Positions 2,190 to 47,310 of a DNA stretch of 64,000 nt are shown piece after piece. Location: assembly GCA_028284865.1 (NCBI GenBank), contig JANQQV010000017.1, positions 186,001 through 250,000 of the forward strand, given 5' to 3'. The notes under the pieces were generated by a model, which searched no databases, had not been told where the DNA came from, and was given only the letters and a program-made list of their open reading frames with translations. Origin of the DNA: Rhodothermales bacterium (GTDB lineage: Bacteria; Bacteroidota; Rhodothermia; Rhodothermales; UBA10348). The translations under genes and the position numbers were made by a program. Numbering within the stretch: position 1 is the stretch's first letter; the number at the start of each line of letters is the position of its first letter.

Positions 2190-3569
2190 TCAGCTGACGG
2201 GCAGGTGAATGCGGAAACGCGTCTTGCCGGGCTCGGACTCCACTTTGATTCCACCCTGGTGCTGATCGACGATGATCCGGTGCACGATGTCGAGGCCCAT
2301 CCCGGTGCCTTCTCCAACATCTTTGGTCGAGTAGAACGGCTCGAATATGTGGGGGAGGATGTCTTCGGGGATACCACTGCCGTTGTCCTCTATACAGATC
2401 TCGACCATCGGTCCCAGCGGTCCAGCAGCCAGGCGTAACGCGCCTCCATCCTGCATGGCATCAATGGCATTGTCGATGAGATTGGTCCAGACCTGGTTCA
2501 ATTCTCCTGGAAAACCGTGAACGGTTGGCAATTCGTCGGCGATGGCCCACTCGGTAGAGATGTTCTTCCCTTTGAGCTTGTGTCCGAGCATGGTGACCGT
2601 GCTGTTCAGACCGGCTTCAATGTCCACCGGCTGCTTGTCTGCCGAACGGTCCATGTGGGAGTAGGTCTTGATTGATCCGACCAACTCAGAGATCCGATCA
2701 CTGGCGGCATGGAGCTCGCCAATGAGCCTCGTTGCTGTTGTGCTCTGCTGGATCCAGGCCAGTACATCCGCGAGCGCATTTTCGGGGATGTCGTTCGTTG
2801 AGGAATCCAGGTGATGTACGGTGATGCCCGCCTCACTGAGCTGGGGAGCGATCCTCCACGCGTCTTCGATGTCGTGGTCCTCCAGCCAGTCAAGGAGTTC
2901 GTCCTCCCGGTCAGCCAACTCGAGAGTGGAAAGGCGCTCTTCGTGATCGGCCAGCGTGCAGGCATGAGCTACTGGCATCACCGAATCCGGAGTCAATCCG
3001 TGCCCGACCAGACGGCCGACCGTATTCGGCAGTGCATCCATCAGCTCTTTCAATTCCGCGGCCGCGCGGCGCGCGGCCGCGGCAGGGTTATTCAATTCGT
3101 GAGCCAGACCGGCAGACAACTTGCCGAGCGCTTGCATCTTGTCGGCTTGTTGATCCACGCGTTCCACATTGCGGACGCGGTCAGACATCCGGGCAACAAG
3201 TCGTTGGCCCAACTGAGGGAGGCGATATAGGACGTCCGGAAACCGATCGCGATCGAGGAATCCTACCCGCGTTGTCTCTACGATTTCACTGCGACCCTCA
3301 TAGGTCTTCATCCGGCTGTAGGGCAGCAGCCCCGTGATCGTCCCGGGATCAAGCTGAGCAAAAAAGCGCCAGCCGCTCTTGTGAGGCACGAAGATGCGCA
3401 TCATGCCCGAGAGGACGATCATCATTTGCTCGGCCGGGTCACCGGGCTTGAATGGCTCCGATCCCGGCTCAAAGACGCGTTCTTCAAATTGCACGGCCAG
3501 CCACTCTAGGTCTTCCTCGGGCAGGTCGGCGAATTCGCTGACGATCTTCAGATCGCTTACAGAAATCAT
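2190..3569 (-). CDS. Sensor histidine kinase with N-terminal cyclic-nucleotide-binding-like domain
   Basis: A soluble 459-residue kinase without membrane segments. Residues about 10-125 resemble a CRP-like cNMP-binding domain. The H-box is LAHELNNPAAAA (H157). The ATPase domain has the N-box NLIDNAIDAM (363-372), G1 DNGSGIP (395-401), an F-box FEPFYSTK and G2 GTGMGLD (421-427). The start MISVSDLK was chosen because it lies just past the stop of the upstream antiporter gene; in-frame starts at 3593 and 3629 would overlap that gene. It is the last gene of a three-gene operon whose first gene carries a receiver domain, so that REC is a plausible phosphoryl acceptor. Confidence 0.9.
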   Translation of the reverse strand: MISVSDLKIVSEFADLPEEDLEWLAVQFEERVFEPGSEPFKPGDPAEQMMIVLSGMMRIFVPHKSGWRFFAQLDPGTITGLLPYSRMKTYEGRSEIVETTRVGFLDRDRFPDVLYRLPQLGQRLVARMSDRVRNVERVDQQADKMQALGKLSAGLAHELNNPAAAARRAAAELKELMDALPNTVGRLVGHGLTPDSVMPVAHACTLADHEERLSTLELADREDELLDWLEDHDIEDAWRIAPQLSEAGITVHHLDSSTNDIPENALADVLAWIQQSTTATRLIGELHAASDRISELVGSIKTYSHMDRSADKQPVDIEAGLNSTVTMLGHKLKGKNISTEWAIADELPTVHGFPGELNQVWTNLIDNAIDAMQDGGALRLAAGPLGPMVEICIEDNGSGIPEDILPHIFEPFYSTKDVGEGTGMGLDIVHRIIVDQHQGGIKVESEPGKTRFRIHLPVS

Positions 3570-3573
3570 GGGT

Positions 3574-5601
3574 TCAACGCACGTATTGGTCATCAATGAA
3601 ACACCAGCCCCACGTTTCACCCGGTTCAAGTGACCGGATGATCGGATGGCCTGTTTCCTCGAAGTGTTTGCGCGCGTGCTGATTCTTTGACGAATCGCAG
3701 CATCCGACGTGACCGCAGGTCATGCACACACGCAAATGCACCCATTCGTCTCCGAGCTCCACACATTGAGGACAGACATCCGTGGCCTCTGGCACCACAA
3801 TCATTCGTGTGTTTCCATGATCACATGTTTCCTTGTGAGGATCCAGAATGATGGCTCCCTCGGGCGGGGTGACGAGAATGTCCTCGTAATCGTGCGAACG
3901 AATGTGGTCGACAATGTCGTCAATGTCCTCTACCGGCACTTCCCGATCCTTCAACGTCTGGGCCAGCAGCTGGACGATGGCTTCGAGCTCGTCCACTATA
4001 ACGCAATCGACGCCCTCTTCGTGGAGCGATTTCACATCTGATTTCCGGGGCGAACGCACAACAATGTGCATGTCCGGATTCATCTGGCGGGCGACCATGG
4101 CGACGCGATGGGTCATCCCGGGATTGTCATCGGCAATGATCAGCGTGCGGGCGGATCCAACGTGCGCAAGGTTCAGGGTATGCTGCTTTGCATAGTCACC
4201 TCGGAGGACATGAACGCCTTGCTCTTCGGCTTCCGTCGCACCTTCCGGGCTCAACGTCAGCACGACAAACGGGATGTCGAATGATCGCAACGAACGAACC
4301 AGGTACTGCGCCGACATGCCGTAACCGGCAATGACGACATGATCGGACATGACCGGAATATGCCCATGAACCTCGGGCTCACTGTCTTCAGACGCCGAGG
4401 TATCTGCTTCACCATCCATCATGCGATCGCGAACTTTCATGCCCAGCGTATGCAACATGGGCGTCATGATCATGACAATGACCGTAGCGGCGATGAAGGT
4501 CTGGGACCCCGTACCTTCCATGCCGGCAGGGAAGAGGCCGGCTTCGCGGCCCGCCCGTTCAAGTACGAAGGAGAATTCCCCGATTTGAGCCAGCATCAAC
4601 CCTGAGGCCAGCGCAATCGGCATGGGATAGCCCAAAATTCGAAGGCTGATTCCTGTGGTGACAATCTTGATGAGCAGGACGAGCACAACGATCCCGAGCA
4701 CCAGCGGCAGGTTGCTGATCAGGAATCCGACATCCAGCAGCATGCCAACGGAAACGAAAAACGTAGCGCTGAACAGGATTTGCAGGGGCATGATTTCGCC
4801 CATCGCGTGCTCGGAAAACTTGCTCTCCGATACCACGATACCAGCGAGGAACGCTCCGAGTGCCAGACTCACACCAGCCAGACTGGTCAGAAAGGCGGTA
4901 CCGAAACAGATTCCGATGACTGTGAGCAAGAAGAGTTCTGGCGAACAGGTTCGTGCCACTGCTTCCAGGAACCGTGGCATGATCCGACGGGCAACCAGTA
5001 GGACGGCCACAATGATGAAAGCTGCTTTTGCCAGCGCCCAGACGATGGCAAGCGAGCCGCCTCCTTGTCCGGACATGAGCGGGACCAGCAGCACCATCAC
5101 GATGATGGCGAGGTCCTGGAAAATGAGCAGTCCCAATCCCACTTTGCCGTGGTCTTCTTCCAGCTCTCCGCGGTCCGAGAGCAGCTTGAGGACAATGGCC
5201 GTGGAAGAGAGCGCGACCAGGAATCCGGTGAACAGACTGGCCTGCCAGGACACCCCGAATGCCATCAGGATGGCTACCGTGACGCCTGTAGCCAGTCCGA
5301 CCTGGAGGCCACCGCCGCCGAAAATCAGGCGTTTGATCCGAGACAGCTTTTCCAGACTGAACTCGATCCCGATAGTGAACAGGAGTAGTAGTACGCCCAC
5401 TTCTGCAGCCGCATCCACGATCTCCTTGTCTGATACAAGTCCGGTCGCCTCAGGGCCGATCAGAACACCGGCAATCAAGAAGCCGACGATCGGGATGATG
5501 CCGAGACGATAACAGATATAGGCGATGGCTGCACTGGCCAGAATGAGCAGTGCGACATCGGTGAAAAAGGGTGGCGCAGCACCCGCAGCAAAAATCAGCA
5601 T
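3574..5601 (-). CDS. CPA2 (Kef-type) cation:proton antiporter with TrkA-N domain and C-terminal UBP-type zinc finger
   Basis: A 675-residue protein. Residues 10-390 are the multi-spanning CPA2 exchanger, with the family signature FQDLAIIVMVLL near 161-172. Residues about 418-540 form a TrkA-N/RCK nucleotide-binding domain starting VVIAGYGMSA. Residues about 590-675 are a UBP-type zinc finger with C610, C613, C626, C629, C634/C635, H642, H646 and H652. Kef antiporters export potassium in response to redox or electrophile cues through the RCK domain; the extra zinc finger is an unusual fusion. The gene begins 12 bases after the REC-reductase gene and is followed immediately by the kinase gene. 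Partner and gating ligand are not known from the sequence. Confidence 0.92.
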   Translation of the reverse strand: MLIFAAGAAPPFFTDVALLILASAAIAYICYRLGIIPIVGFLIAGVLIGPEATGLVSDKEIVDAAAEVGVLLLLFTIGIEFSLEKLSRIKRLIFGGGGLQVGLATGVTVAILMAFGVSWQASLFTGFLVALSSTAIVLKLLSDRGELEEDHGKVGLGLLIFQDLAIIVMVLLVPLMSGQGGGSLAIVWALAKAAFIIVAVLLVARRIMPRFLEAVARTCSPELFLLTVIGICFGTAFLTSLAGVSLALGAFLAGIVVSESKFSEHAMGEIMPLQILFSATFFVSVGMLLDVGFLISNLPLVLGIVVLVLLIKIVTTGISLRILGYPMPIALASGLMLAQIGEFSFVLERAGREAGLFPAGMEGTGSQTFIAATVIVMIMTPMLHTLGMKVRDRMMDGEADTSASEDSEPEVHGHIPVMSDHVVIAGYGMSAQYLVRSLRSFDIPFVVLTLSPEGATEAEEQGVHVLRGDYAKQHTLNLAHVGSARTLIIADDNPGMTHRVAMVARQMNPDMHIVVRSPRKSDVKSLHEEGVDCVIVDELEAIVQLLAQTLKDREVPVEDIDDIVDHIRSHDYEDILVTPPEGAIILDPHKETCDHGNTRMIVVPEATDVCPQCVELGDEWVHLRVCMTCGHVGCCDSSKNQHARKHFEETGHPIIRSLEPGETWGWCFIDDQYVR

Positions 5602-5612
5602 GGATCTGGGAA

Positions 5613-7253
5613 TCAGAGACTGGCCAGGTGGCGATGGACGAAGTGAACGGAAACGGATCCTTCACCGACCGCACTCGCCACGCGCTTGACCGATTCATGG
5701 CGCACGTCTCCGGCAGCAAATATGCCGGGGACGTTGGTTTCGAGCAGCCAGGGATCCCGCTCCAGAGGCCAGTCCTTGAGATGCTCGTCTCGCAGATCGG
5801 GACCGGTGAGTACGAAGCCTTGCTCGTCGAGGGCAATCAGATCTCGCAGCCAGTCGGTACGCGGAACGGCCCCGATGAAGACAAAGAGCCAGGTGGAAGG
5901 GACGTCTTCCTCCTCTCCTGACGTGCGATTGCGAAGGGTCAGGGTGTCGAGGCGACCTGAGCCTTTGCAGGCGACAATTTCGGTGTGCAAGCGGACCTCG
6001 ATGTTCTCGGTATCATGGATCCGGTCAACGAGGTATTGCGACATCTTGGCTTCGAGCGAGTCGCCCCGGACCAGCATCACCACTTTGGCTGCCTTTTCTG
6101 CGAAGCGCATGGCAGCTTGGCCCGCTGAGTTACCCGCGCCGACGGTGTAGACGACATCACCTGCGCAGTTGTCCACTTCGGTCAGTGCAGCGCCGTAATA
6201 CACGCCCTGGTCGGTGTATTTCTCGGCGTTTTCGGCGGGCAGCATGCGCCAGGATACGCCCATCGACAGCATCAGCGCATGGCAAGAAATGCGTGTACCA
6301 TCATCAAGGATGAGGTGGCGGTAAGGACCCTCCAGCTCGACCGATGCTACGCTACGCGGCGTCAACATCTCGACGCCGAATTTTCGCGCCTGTGCGACGG
6401 CCCGTCCGGCGAGTTCGCTTCCGGAGAGTCCAGCCGGGAATCCGAGGTAGTTTTCAATACGCGATGAGGTCCCTGCCTGTCCCCCAGGTGCTGATCCTTC
6501 GATCAATACGGTAGACAACCCTTCCGAGCCTCCATAGACGGCCGTCGCCAGCCCTGCGGGACCACCTCCGATGATGGCCAGATCATAGAATTCGTTGCCT
6601 GCTTCAACTTGAAGGCCCACTTGCCCGGCAAGCTCCTTTTCAGAAGGATTGCACACGCGGGTCCCATTCTCCAGGATCAAGAGCGGAATATCGTCATCAC
6701 CCCGAAGCTCCTTGGCTTCTTCTGATGATTCGATGTCGAGGAATGTGTAGGGGACGAGGTTGCGGGCAAGGAAGTCGCGCAGCTGGTGACTGCGTGCTGA
6801 CCAGCGGTCCGCGATCAGTTTGATGCCTTCAAATCCCGGGCGAAAAAGCAATTGCCAGTCATCCAGCAAACCATCGATGATGGGGTAGAGTTTGTCTTCT
6901 GGCGGGTCCCAGGGTTTGACGAAGTAGTAATCGACGTGGGATGCGTTGATGGCGCTGATGGCGGCTTCCGTGTCGGAATAGGCCGTCAGGAGAGCCCGTT
7001 TGGCAGCGGGAAACCTTTCCCTCGCTCTGGTCAGGAATTCCACTCCGTTCATGGACGGCATGCGCTGATCAGAAAGCAGCAAGGATACCGTACCGCCGCG
7101 CTCCTTCACCGCGTCCAGGGCCTCCAGGGCTTCAGCGCCGGAGGCGGCGCGCATGATGCGATAGTCTTTTCCGTATTGGCGGCGAAGGTCTCGGGCAATG
7201 GAAGCAAGGACCTGAGGGTCATCGTCCACCGTCAGGATGATGGGTGTAGCCAT
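5613..7253 (-). CDS. Fused response regulator / thioredoxin-reductase-like FAD oxidoreductase
   Basis: A 546-residue fusion. Residues 4-125 are a receiver domain (acidic pocket D10-D12, phospho-acceptor D62, T90, K113). Residues about 145-210 look like a thioredoxin/glutaredoxin-fold segment. Residues 222-546 are a TrxR-like pyridine-nucleotide oxidoreductase with GGGPAG (FAD, 229-234), GAGNSAG (NAD(P)H, 372-378) and GIFAAGD (510-516). The CxxC disulfide normally just before the NAD(P)H motif is missing: the aligned segment is GVYYGAAL (350-357). Electron flow must therefore differ from classical thioredoxin reductase. It heads the operon with the antiporter and kinase, suggesting phosphorylation-controlled redox chemistry linked to ion flux. 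Confidence 0.92.
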   Translation of the reverse strand: MATPIILTVDDDPQVLASIARDLRRQYGKDYRIMRAASGAEALEALDAVKERGGTVSLLLSDQRMPSMNGVEFLTRARERFPAAKRALLTAYSDTEAAISAINASHVDYYFVKPWDPPEDKLYPIIDGLLDDWQLLFRPGFEGIKLIADRWSARSHQLRDFLARNLVPYTFLDIESSEEAKELRGDDDIPLLILENGTRVCNPSEKELAGQVGLQVEAGNEFYDLAIIGGGPAGLATAVYGGSEGLSTVLIEGSAPGGQAGTSSRIENYLGFPAGLSGSELAGRAVAQARKFGVEMLTPRSVASVELEGPYRHLILDDGTRISCHALMLSMGVSWRMLPAENAEKYTDQGVYYGAALTEVDNCAGDVVYTVGAGNSAGQAAMRFAEKAAKVVMLVRGDSLEAKMSQYLVDRIHDTENIEVRLHTEIVACKGSGRLDTLTLRNRTSGEEEDVPSTWLFVFIGAVPRTDWLRDLIALDEQGFVLTGPDLRDEHLKDWPLERDPWLLETNVPGIFAAGDVRHESVKRVASAVGEGSVSVHFVHRHLASL

Positions 7254-37945: not shown

Positions 37946-38104
37946 GTAATTCATGGCTAAGAGCAATCCGATCAGGGAACGTTACAGATGTGTCCCGCGG
38001 TGTGGCCCCAAACGGGATGGACGACAAGACCATTTCGACGTTCAGTTGTGCTTGTTTGAATGGCGAGCGAGGTGTTATCTAGGTCTTCACCCGAACGCAT
38101 TCGC

Positions 38105-39220
38105 ATGGCCAAGCGCAAATCCCAACTGGACCGTCTCCGGGAAACCATCCTGAAGCCGACGATCCGGGTCCCCAATCTGATTCGATTCAAGCCCGGGGCG
38201 CCTCCTGGCGTTCTGGAGTATCGCGGAGAGGAACGCACTGAACCGGTCACCCTCTCCCTGATCGATTTCAGGGACGATCACTTCGAGGAAATCCCGGAGA
38301 TCGGCCCCGAGTGGAAGGAACGCGTTACGGCGCCGGGCACGGTCTCTTGGTTGGATGTTTCCGGCGTGCACGACCCATCGGTCATTGAAGACATCGGTTC
38401 GCACCTTGGTCTGCATCCGCTGATCATGGAGGACATCGTCAACCCGATCCAGCGGCCGAAATTCGAGCCGTTTGAGGATCAGCTCTATGTCGTGGTGCGG
38501 ATGCTCCACATCCGGGACGACGGGACTGTGCAGGACGAGCAGATCTCGATCGTGATCACCAAGCATTATGTAGTCTCGTTCCAGCAGCTTCCCGGAGACG
38601 TATTCGACCCGGTTCGGCAGCGCCTGTGCAATGGAAAAGGGGTGATTCGTTCCCAGGGGGCTGACTATATCGCCTATGCGTTGATCGACCTGATTGTCGA
38701 CTACTACTTCGTGTTGCTGGAGCGCATCGGCACGCAAGTGCAGGAATTGGAGCAGGAGGTGATGGACAATCCGTCAAAGGACACCGTCCAGGCCATCCGG
38801 GCGGCCAAGCAGACCATCATCTCCTACCGAAAGGACATTTGGCCCGTCCGTGAGCTGGCGTCTGCCATGGCCAGGGATGATTCCGGACTCATCAAGAAGC
38901 GAACGACGACGTACTTGCGGGACGTGTACGATCATGCTATCCAGGTCATCGACCTGATGGAGACGTACCGTGACCAGCTTTCCGGATTGACCGATCTGTA
39001 CCTGTCTTCACTCAGTCAGCGAATGAACGAGGTGATGCAGGTTCTGACCATCATCGGTAGCATTTTCATCCCGCTGACATTCATCGCCGGGATTTACGGG
39101 ATGAACTTTGTGAACATGCCCGAGCTGCAGTGGGAGTATGGCTATCAGATGGCCTGGGGTTTGATGATTTTGACGGCGATCGGGTTGTTCGTGTTCTTCA
39201 AGCGACGCAAGTGGTTGTGA
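38105..39220 (+). CDS. corA: CorA family magnesium/cobalt transporter
   Basis: A 371-residue channel with a large cytoplasmic N-terminal domain, a long stalk helix and two C-terminal membrane helices. The first ends with the hallmark YGMNF, followed by the MPELQWEYGYQMAW periplasmic loop; the basic tail KRRKWL closes the protein. It forms pentamers for passive Mg2+ uptake. The start MAKRKSQLDR (38105) was preferred over an in-frame ATG at 38060. The MscS gene starts 2 bases after its stop. Confidence 0.94.
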   Translation: MAKRKSQLDRLRETILKPTIRVPNLIRFKPGAPPGVLEYRGEERTEPVTLSLIDFRDDHFEEIPEIGPEWKERVTAPGTVSWLDVSGVHDPSVIEDIGSHLGLHPLIMEDIVNPIQRPKFEPFEDQLYVVVRMLHIRDDGTVQDEQISIVITKHYVVSFQQLPGDVFDPVRQRLCNGKGVIRSQGADYIAYALIDLIVDYYFVLLERIGTQVQELEQEVMDNPSKDTVQAIRAAKQTIISYRKDIWPVRELASAMARDDSGLIKKRTTTYLRDVYDHAIQVIDLMETYRDQLSGLTDLYLSSLSQRMNEVMQVLTIIGSIFIPLTFIAGIYGMNFVNMPELQWEYGYQMAWGLMILTAIGLFVFFKRRKWL

Positions 39221-39222
39221 CC

Positions 39223-40335
39223 ATGATGACCTTCCTATCACAAAACGTCGCAGCACGCGTGCTCAGGGACCGGATGCAACAGGACGCGGATGCCCCGGCA
39301 CAGGATTCGCTCGCGTTGGCACAAGACTCGGTTGCAGCTGACACCTCGAACGCAAGCCCGCTCGTCGATCTCGTCGAAGCGCCTTCGCGCATCGTCACCA
39401 AGCTGTCTGAGATCTTCTCCATTGAAGCCGTCGTGGCGGTCGGCCTGAAGCTGTTTCTGATCGTCATCATCGCCTGGGGCGTGATCAAAGTGGTCGATCG
39501 GGCGCTGCAGGTCTGGAATGGTCGCTTCGAAGACTTGCCGCTCATCGCTCCCCGTCGACAGCGTGCATTGACCATCAGCACCCTGATGTCTTCTTCGGCG
39601 CGATACGTGGTCTGGTCAATTGCGCTCATCACCATTCTGGATGTGATGAACATAGATGTGGGTGCGCTGATCGCAACGGCCGGTATTGCGGGGATAGCCA
39701 TCGGTTTTGGGGCCCAGTCACTCGTCAAGGACATGATCGGCGGCGTATTGCTCCTGTTTGATGACACCATTCACGTCGGTGATCTCGTTCGTCTGGGAAC
39801 CGACGAGGGTCTGGTTGAGGACATCGGTGTGCGAACCATCAAGATTCGTCGATTCAATGGGGAACTGCTCATGGTACCCGCAGGCGATCTCCGGACGTTC
39901 GGAAATCGAAGCATCGGATTCGTTCGAGCAGTGGTGCCTGTTGGCTTGTCCTACGGCCAGGACGCCGATCGCATCATGGAGGTGATGCAGCGTGTGGCAG
40001 ATGAGTACGCGGCCGACCATCCCGACATTCTCATCACCGATGAACCGCCGATCGTTCAGGGTATCACCAATTTCGCCGAGAGCTCCGTGGATGTACGGAT
40101 TGTCATCAAGATGCTCCCTGGCGAACAATGGAATGCCGAACGTGAACTGCGCAGGCGGCTGAAACGTGCCTTCGATCAGGAAGGGATATCCATCCCATTT
40201 CCTCAGCGCACGCTCCATCTGGTCCAGGAGAGCGAGCAGCGTAATCCGTTCTCCACAGCGTCGACGGCCGCATCGCCGAAGGATGACGAGGGTGATCGAT
40301 GGGAAAGCGGATCAGAGGACACGCCCTCTGTGTGA
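39223..40335 (+). CDS. MscS family mechanosensitive ion channel
   Basis: A 370-residue small-conductance channel. Membrane segments lie around 70-90 and 120-140, and the pore helix is ATAGIAGIAIGFGAQSLVKD, with the glycine/alanine packing expected for MscS TM3. The beta-domain follows with GGVLLLFDDTIHVGDLV, and the C-terminus is acidic and serine-rich. It opens on membrane tension after osmotic downshock. Translation is probably coupled to corA, only 2 bases upstream. Confidence 0.93.
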   Translation: MMTFLSQNVAARVLRDRMQQDADAPAQDSLALAQDSVAADTSNASPLVDLVEAPSRIVTKLSEIFSIEAVVAVGLKLFLIVIIAWGVIKVVDRALQVWNGRFEDLPLIAPRRQRALTISTLMSSSARYVVWSIALITILDVMNIDVGALIATAGIAGIAIGFGAQSLVKDMIGGVLLLFDDTIHVGDLVRLGTDEGLVEDIGVRTIKIRRFNGELLMVPAGDLRTFGNRSIGFVRAVVPVGLSYGQDADRIMEVMQRVADEYAADHPDILITDEPPIVQGITNFAESSVDVRIVIKMLPGEQWNAERELRRRLKRAFDQEGISIPFPQRTLHLVQESEQRNPFSTASTAASPKDDEGDRWESGSEDTPSV

Positions 40336-45981: not shown

Positions 45982-47310
45982 ATGGCGTCCCCACAGCTTC
46001 TCCCAGAAGACCGTCCGATTGACGACCTCCTCAAGCCCATAAATCAGTTTCTCCGCCTTGAGGCGTCCTCTGGAATTCTATTGATGGTCATGGCCGTCCT
46101 GGCGCTTGTTTTCGCCAACACGGCCCTCTCGACGACCTACTTCAGCACGCTTGAAATCCCCCTGAAAGTCGGTTTCGGGGATTTCGTGATTGACAAGCCG
46201 CTTCTACTCTGGATCAACGACGGCCTCATGGCCATCTTTTTCTTCCTCGTTGGTCTGGAGATCAAGCGCGAAGTCCTGGTCGGTGAGCTTTCATCTCCCA
46301 AGCAAGCGATGCTGCCCATCATGGGTGCCATCGGTGGAATGGTCGTTCCCGCTGGTGCTTACGTTCTGGTAACGGGCGGGACACCCTTCGTGAACGGCTG
46401 GGGAATCCCCATGGCGACCGATATTGCCTTCGCCCTGGGAATCCTGGCGTTGCTCGGGACCCGCGCACCCGTCGCACTCAAGATCTTCCTGACGGCCCTG
46501 GCCATCATCGATGACCTGGGAGCGGTCATGGTCATCGCCATTTTCTACACCTCCAAGATCAACATGGTGGCGTTGGCCGCTGGATTCGGTCTCTTTGCTG
46601 TGCTGGCTCTTGGTAATCGACTCGGTGTTCGGAAGACCCGGTTTTATGTCATCCTGGGAATCTTTCTCTGGCTGGCATTCCTCAAGTCCGGTGTTCACGC
46701 CACGATTGCTGGCGTACTCCTGGCACTGACCGTTCCGGCTCGCCGTCGACTTGACGAAGTCACTTTCCGCGAAAAGGCGCAGGGCTTCCTCAGTTCGATG
46801 AAAGTCGGGGAAGAAGATGACCGGGAAAACCAGGAGGCGGTCAACGCGCTGGAGATTCTCTCCAAGGGCGCTGCGACCCCGTTGGCTCGCATGGAGCATG
46901 CCCTGCATGGTTGGGTAGCCTTCTTCATCATGCCGGTATTCGCTCTGGCCAATGCCGGTGTAGACTTGCGTCAGGTCTCCATCTTTGAAGCACTTACCCA
47001 TCCGGTTGCCCTCGGGATCATCGCAGGTTTGTTCATCGGAAAGCAGGTTGGCGTAGCCATTTTCTCCTGGGTGGCGCTCAAGCTCAACATCGCCGAGATG
47101 CCAAAAGGAGTGGGCTGGCTGCAATTGTACGGAGTCGCAGTCCTCACCGGTGTTGGCTTCACGATGTCACTCTTCATCGCCGGTCTTTCATTTGGCGATC
47201 CGGAAGTGCTTGATCGAGCCAAGACAGGCATTCTGTTTGCGTCCCTGATCGCGGGCCTCATGGGGTACTTCATGATCAGGTTGTCGCCGGTCGCCTCAGA
47301 CGATTCATGA
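45982..47310 (+). CDS. nhaA: Na+/H+ antiporter NhaA
   Basis: A 442-residue NhaA antiporter that expels sodium in exchange for protons. The ion-binding aspartate pair lies in AIIDDLGAV (D177, D178, equivalent to E. coli D163/D164), and MATDIAFALG gives D147 (E. coli D133). Helix patterns are complete from GILLMVMAVLALVFANT to GYFMIRLSP. An extra charged cytoplasmic loop (about 265-295, GEEDDRENQEA) is present. Sodium export suits a marine organism with a proton-pumping rhodopsin. Confidence 0.95.
   Translation: MASPQLLPEDRPIDDLLKPINQFLRLEASSGILLMVMAVLALVFANTALSTTYFSTLEIPLKVGFGDFVIDKPLLLWINDGLMAIFFFLVGLEIKREVLVGELSSPKQAMLPIMGAIGGMVVPAGAYVLVTGGTPFVNGWGIPMATDIAFALGILALLGTRAPVALKIFLTALAIIDDLGAVMVIAIFYTSKINMVALAAGFGLFAVLALGNRLGVRKTRFYVILGIFLWLAFLKSGVHATIAGVLLALTVPARRRLDEVTFREKAQGFLSSMKVGEEDDRENQEAVNALEILSKGAATPLARMEHALHGWVAFFIMPVFALANAGVDLRQVSIFEALTHPVALGIIAGLFIGKQVGVAIFSWVALKLNIAEMPKGVGWLQLYGVAVLTGVGFTMSLFIAGLSFGDPEVLDRAKTGILFASLIAGLMGYFMIRLSPVASDDS

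Follow-up and report, generated by a model that had tools for sequence, protein, structure and literature searches.

A 64,000-nt stretch of DNA from a Rhodothermales bacterium (GCA_028284865.1, contig JANQQV010000017.1, positions 186,001-250,000; hereafter, the window) contains a three-gene operon that probably encodes a previously undescribed switch controlling ion efflux during chemical stress, since the same gene set recurs in several phyla and sometimes adjoins quinone-detoxification genes. In the reading favored here, to which we assign roughly even odds (probability ∼0.5), the operon encodes a two-component system that directly controls a K+/H+ antiporter, with a flavoprotein as a KefF-like ancillary subunit and a UBP zinc finger for docking. 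The three open reading frames (ORFs) are open throughout and share the minus strand, with gaps of 11 bp (P0003-P0002) and 4 bp (P0002-P0001); the coordinates, strand, and gaps given in an earlier note on this DNA were reproduced exactly. Its domain calls also agreed with Pfam: P0003 joins a receiver domain (REC; Response_reg) to a thioredoxin reductase (TrxR)-like domain (Pyr_redox_2), P0002 joins an antiporter domain (Na_H_Exchanger, residues 22-385) to an RCK (TrkA_N) domain and a zf-UBP finger, and P0001 is a kinase with a CRP-like domain (cNMP_binding), a weak HisKA match (residues 148-175), and HATPase_c (residues 356-458). Features that had gone unnoticed were a glutaredoxin (Grx)-like domain (residues ∼144-211) between REC and the TrxR-like domain of P0003, the absence of the TrxR CxxC from that protein, and a helical insert in the dimerisation hairpin of P0001. 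The source genome has a single UBP finger, a single REC-TrxR gene, and a single full-length kinase of the P0001 type, all within the operon; because these only copies lie together and numerous phyla show the same combination of genes, their grouping is more than chance.

To describe this co-occurrence, the best 80 of 592 loci from a genome scan with the REC-TrxR alignment were compared, and the frequencies given for REC-TrxR neighborhoods describe those 80 (labels beginning with L and G denote compared loci and compared genomes, respectively). The loci span Cyanobacteria, Actinomycetota, Chloroflexota, Acidobacteriota, Bacteroidota, and others. Module-type kinases were concentrated beside REC-TrxR, with 65 within 3 kb, one at 3-6 kb, and none at 6-10 kb, and UBP fingers followed the same pattern (12, 0, and 0, respectively); other kinases were evenly distributed. 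Where 2 kb was available on both sides, a kinase lay ≤3 kb from REC-TrxR in 47 of 55 loci. Annotated plasmids of Streptomyces and Tsukamurella carry REC-TrxR, kinase, and UBP genes with overlapping ends, and TrxR-like genes adjoin UBP on those of Rhodococcus, Rhizobium, Agrobacterium, and Burkholderia. The neighborhood had been put forward in the earlier note, which proposed a genome survey as a check; the distance counts establish that it is real, spans phyla, and is conserved well beyond close relatives. Genes for LtrA and bestrophin also recur close to REC-TrxR. Longest-ORF calls between the named genes are unreliable in GC-rich loci (e.g., L171 and L172).

The connection to an antiporter recurs as well, both through domain fusions and through a second antiporter lineage. 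The window and L065, L057, L174, L181, and L098 each combine a fused Kef-RCK-UBP protein with the kinase and REC-TrxR, and Kef-UBP fusions of the window's antiporter lineage are present in three phyla (L065, L059, L057, L174, and L171-L173; the acidobacterial L098, L177, L178, L180, and L181; and L273 and L274 from Deinococcus). In the Balneola family, all 16 UBP genes adjoin an RCK-bearing antiporter, 14 of them together with the kinase and REC-TrxR; because this antiporter is only ∼24% identical to P0002 and falls in a separate clade, this set of regulators has become associated with antiporters of two lineages. In L167-L170, Kef-RCK orthologues end in a glutaredoxin-like domain where the finger otherwise sits (Pfam Glutaredoxin in L168 and L170, a profile match in L167 and L169), with active sites CPLT (L167 and L170) and CALT (L168), and those of L167-L169 adjoin the kinase and REC-TrxR. 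Other fusions place the finger on the kinase (L250) and on a TMEM175 K+ channel domain in a Chloroflexota locus (L254, 3000-4028); in addition, UBP overlaps a CPA1 antiporter gene by 4 bp in L243 and follows an RCK K+ channel gene in L196. Taken together, linkage and fusion suggest that the module probably regulates the antiporter.

The residues needed for a phosphorelay are retained in both signaling proteins. The receiver carries the D/D/T/K phosphorylation site of response regulators, with D62, T90, and K113 conserved in 112/112 relatives and D11 in 111/112; D62 is the acceptor proposed in the earlier note. The kinase has the HisKA-type phospho-donor H157, invariant among its relatives, together with N363/N367, D395-x-G397-x-G399, and G421-G425; by the rules of these families, phosphotransfer from the kinase to REC is very likely. 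Within the helical insert of the kinase, E222 was nearly invariant (37 relatives). The phosphate-binding GE...RxA motif of CRP-type domains is replaced by GLLPYSR in P0001, with Glu at position 81 in 10 of 37 relatives, and cyclic-nucleotide sensing by P0001 was rejected on the loss of this motif.

The flavoprotein has lost the dithiol chemistry of the enzymes that it resembles. At the position of the TrxR CxxC, Gly354 is present in 112/112 relatives within Gly-Ala-Ala-x or close Cys-free variants, such that a redox-active CxxC occurs in the core of none (0/112), and 108/112 contain no CxxC anywhere. The Grx-like domain is modeled as beta-alpha-beta-alpha-beta-beta-alpha, its profile also matches the Pfam-Glutaredoxin tail of the Kef orthologues, and Ser152 occupies the Grx Cys position in 106/112 relatives. 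The protein should bind FAD and NAD(P)H yet lacks a redox dithiol. With both sites lost, a role for the flavoprotein as an allosteric or NAD(P)H-FAD partner, comparable to that of KefF with KefC, is more likely than thiol reduction, and a thiol-reductase output was rejected. In the interpretation put forward in the earlier note, the cross-phylum neighborhood, the phospho-residues, and the antiporter link were supported, whereas the TrxR-type redox output was not.

The flavoprotein KefF is encoded just 5′ of kefC and is required for full KefC activity, but its own catalysis is dispensable (PMC10224563). Since the REC-TrxR gene likewise lies just 5′ of the antiporter and dithiol chemistry is lost, a phosphorylation-controlled ancillary subunit is the simplest reading. 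The soluble kinase P0001 would autophosphorylate on H157 and pass the phosphate to D62 of P0003; phosphorylation, perhaps with the flavin state, would enable the flavoprotein to serve the Kef-type antiporter as an ancillary subunit; and the UBP finger, here fused behind the RCK domain, would provide docking and so keep the regulator attached to the transporter. The predicted result is an exchange of outgoing K+ for incoming H+, a fast defense against electrophiles such as quinones or against related redox stress. Docking via UBP is a more tentative component, and electrophile or quinone stress has about an even chance of being the physiological setting.

Evidence for that setting comes from the Balneola family, in which the operon frequently has the order MhqO, MhqD, antiporter, DsbA-like protein, UBP, kinase, and REC-TrxR (MhqO in 12/16 loci, MhqD in 11/16, and DsbA-like in 10/16). 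Among solved structures, B. subtilis MhqO (3oaj, E 4.3e-71) is the closest to this homologue, which also matches a hydroquinone dioxygenase and is named a ring-cleaving dioxygenase in annotated records, and Mhq proteins work in quinone detoxification (PMC6798810). In G593 and G584, which carry the other antiporter lineage, REC-TrxR is followed by MhqO and then by an MhqD-like hydrolase and Kef-UBP, all within ∼12 kb on one strand, and the Tsukamurella module is followed by a gene for S-(hydroxymethyl)mycothiol dehydrogenase. The MhqO/MhqD neighbors would also suit a flavoprotein that is itself the output, namely a phosphorylation-controlled NAD(P)H-dependent reductase that detoxifies quinones or small electrophiles or acts on a protein acceptor, the antiporter being a co-expressed, parallel defense. 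Sister proteins have a CNB domain in place of REC, which would fit a TrxR-like part that is a regulated enzyme; the modeled core is nearer to the FR form (5mh4, TMt 0.93), in which the NADPH side lies close to the flavin, than to the FO form (5mjk, 0.63); and KefF itself reduces quinones (PMC10224563). However, co-expression alone does not require UBP fusions to transporters, a K+ channel, and a kinase, and most REC-TrxR loci lack adjoining detoxification genes, which leaves this alternative unlikely, at perhaps one chance in four.

Several observations weigh against direct control of an antiporter by the module. No antiporter lies in reach of most pairs of REC-TrxR and kinase (Cyanobacteria, Actinomycetota, Acidobacteriota), so antiporter K+ transport is not the sole output; 51 of 56 acidobacterial UBP genes lack a Kef-type antiporter, and just 8 of 56 have a TrxR-like neighbor. 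Kef-UBP also occurs without an adjoining kinase or REC-TrxR in G085 (L059) and Deinococcus, and the KefC glutathione-contact Arg is Met429 in P0002. Among the examined loci, MhqO and MhqD accompany the module only in the window's class, apart from one Rubrobacteraceae locus with MhqO, and the MhqO of the window's genome lies on another contig. Composition, conservation, co-occurrence, fusions, and kept or lost residues are directly visible in the sequence; phosphotransfer, docking, and gating are predicted. The variety of partners (LtrA, bestrophin, antiporters, or none) and the pairing of UBP with sigma-54 response regulators in Acidobacteriota could instead reflect an older, general two-component switch of kinase, REC-TrxR, and UBP with interchangeable targets, in which Kef adjacency is one of several unrelated uses and the flavoprotein does not contact the antiporter; this is improbable, as several of the partners transport ions or are linked to K+, and fusions to them recur. 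Least probable is the thiol-redox gating of the earlier note, by which REC-TrxR would reduce cysteines in the antiporter, UBP, or a thioredoxin partner: the CxxT glutaredoxin tails of Kef orthologues, the DsbA-like protein of the Balneola-family operons, and Cys363, close to the CxxC site in 84/112 relatives, favor it, against the loss of CxxC from the site in all relatives and of the Grx cysteine in most.

The Cys/His zinc ligands of the UBP finger are kept in 116-117 of 117 sequences, and its fold is that of UBP fingers. UBP genes were found in 59/251 Chloroflexota, 55/247 Acidobacteriota, and, in the window's phylum, 32/296 of the genomes sampled; the acidobacterial UBP regions examined are nearly all of the scan matches, and those of Chloroflexota are a selection. 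Ubiquitin is largely absent from bacteria, and the papers searched contained neither a role for bacterial UBP fingers nor a description of the module (UBP alongside a bacterial kinase, Kef, or TrxR). Recognition by UBP of a common C-terminal tail was rejected, the C-termini of REC-TrxR proteins being diverse. Speculatively, and with less than even probability, UBP could act as the common adaptor in a two-component system, widespread but not yet described, in which a dithiol-free TrxR-like regulator gates ion transporters by direct contact (Kef, the Balneola-family antiporters, TMEM175, and perhaps LtrA and bestrophin); if so, K+ flux in bacteria under electrophile stress would be under post-translational phosphorelay control. 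A defined partner set of kinase, phosphorylatable flavoprotein, and K+ transporter would make the role of bacterial UBP testable, and the favored reading, if true, would give REC-TrxR response regulators a function and add a direct phosphorelay to the few known ways of gating Kef-type efflux. UBP genes also occur in other contexts: in Acidobacteriota, UBP adjoins a sigma-54-type response regulator, often with a kinase, a different pairing (L197-L200, L211, and L215), stand-alone UBP genes adjoin DUF5996 genes (L194, L196, and L224), and UBP is fused to a diadenylate cyclase (DAC) domain (L184, 9515-10525); in L185 (8685-10112) it is fused to an LtrA membrane protein.

The antiporter P0002 has the CPA2 membrane domain, RCK domain, and QD motif of KefC/KefB-type proteins; in KefC this motif is the K+-binding site (PMC11150392). 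It is classed as Kef-like rather than KefC because the glutathione-contact Arg is lost and the NCBIfam KefC cut-off is missed (292 of 752 bits). Aligned with 8bxg, KefC R409 corresponds to Met429, and Q412 is kept as Gln432; with a strong BshA (bacillithiol) match and a marginal GCS2 match in the source genome, glutathione gating appears unlikely and was rejected.

Table 1. Coordinates of the operon's genes, domains, and sites within the window.
Feature	Position	Strand	Support
Soluble histidine kinase with CRP-like N-terminal domain, P0001, 459 aa	2190..3569	-	Pfam; model mean pLDDT 89
Helical insert in dimerisation/His-phosphotransfer hairpin, residues 190-262	2784..3002	-	Flanked by model helices 118-189 and 263-308
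Phospho-donor His157 in AGLAHELNNP	3099..3101	-	Invariant in 37 relatives
cNMP_binding-like sensor domain, residues 31-114, cyclic-nucleotide motif lost (GLLPYSR)	3228..3479	-	E 6.9e-9; column counts
Kef-type CPA2 antiporter with RCK and UBP finger, P0002, 675 aa	3574..5601	-	Pfam; SdKefC structure 8bxg, E 1.3e-59 over 17-532
UBP zinc finger, residues 610-674 of P0002	3580..3774	-	zf-UBP E 6.2e-14; closest solved structure 2ida, E 8.4e-28
RCK (TrkA_N) domain, residues 422-536	3994..4338	-	E 1.2e-18
Q162-D163, K+-binding QD motif of KefC	5113..5118	-	Kept in every aligned antiporter, both lineages
REC-Grx-like-TrxR-like flavoprotein, P0003, 546 aa	5613..7253	-	Pfam; 48-71% identity to 36 relatives in many phyla; AlphaFold mean pLDDT 88
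TrxR-like FAD/NAD(P)H domain, residues 223-532	5658..6587	-	Pyr_redox_2 E 4.1e-30; PDB TrxR matches
Site aligned with TrxR CxxC, here G354-A-A-L357	6183..6194	-	Alignment to solved TrxRs
Degenerate glutaredoxin-like domain, residues 144-211, Ser152 at Cys position	6621..6824	-	AlphaFold fold; profile match
Receiver domain, residues 6-118; phospho-acceptor D62 at 7068-7070	6900..7238	-	Response_reg E 2.4e-15

Adjacent to the operon, at 2-2184 on the plus strand, are the C-terminal part of a rhodopsin, a lycopene cyclase, and a Blh beta-carotene dioxygenase, with 5 bp between the facing stop codons; their membership in the system was rejected, given the convergent orientation and a photolyase at the same place in the related locus L065. 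Farther away, CorA-like, MscS-like, and NhaA-like transport genes were recognized by eye at 38060-40335 and 45982-47310 (plus strand).

In comparison with known systems, P0003 shares with TrxR and AhpF the FAD and pyridine-nucleotide fold and, as in AhpF, a Trx-fold domain ahead of the TrxR core, but it differs in lacking the cysteines of both domains and in the reduction of HRRxxxR, which we take to be the NADPH-binding motif of TrxR, to one invariant Arg among its relatives. The finger shares zinc ligands and aromatic pocket residues with the UBP fingers of USPs and HDAC6 and with 2ida, which is of the same bacterial type; the CGRY of HDAC6, whose Arg is presumably important as the contact to the ubiquitin C-terminal carboxylate, aligns with CCDSS, the operon finger having C-D-x-S without that Arg. 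REC-thioredoxin reductase response regulators with the same domain fusion as P0003 have been recorded as "Mycobacterium-like" (PMC5847659), in passages that treat architecture only and make no mention of a partner kinase, UBP, the Grx-like domain, CxxC loss, or a transporter link. KefC-KefF of E. coli and Shewanella resembles the operon in its CPA2 antiporter with QD motif and RCK, the flavoprotein gene directly 5′, and the link to quinones and electrophiles, but the flavoprotein here is a TrxR-like FAD protein with REC rather than a KefF-type FMN quinone reductase, so that the role alone is compared; KefC Arg409 is replaced by Met in a genome with strong BshA and marginal GCS2 matches, and a kinase and UBP are added. 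PtsN-YcgO differs in its phosphotransferase system (PTS) phosphorelay, in inhibition by the unphosphorylated form, and in having no flavoprotein or finger, but offers the likeness of a phosphorelay protein acting directly on a K+/H+ antiporter (PMC11808508).

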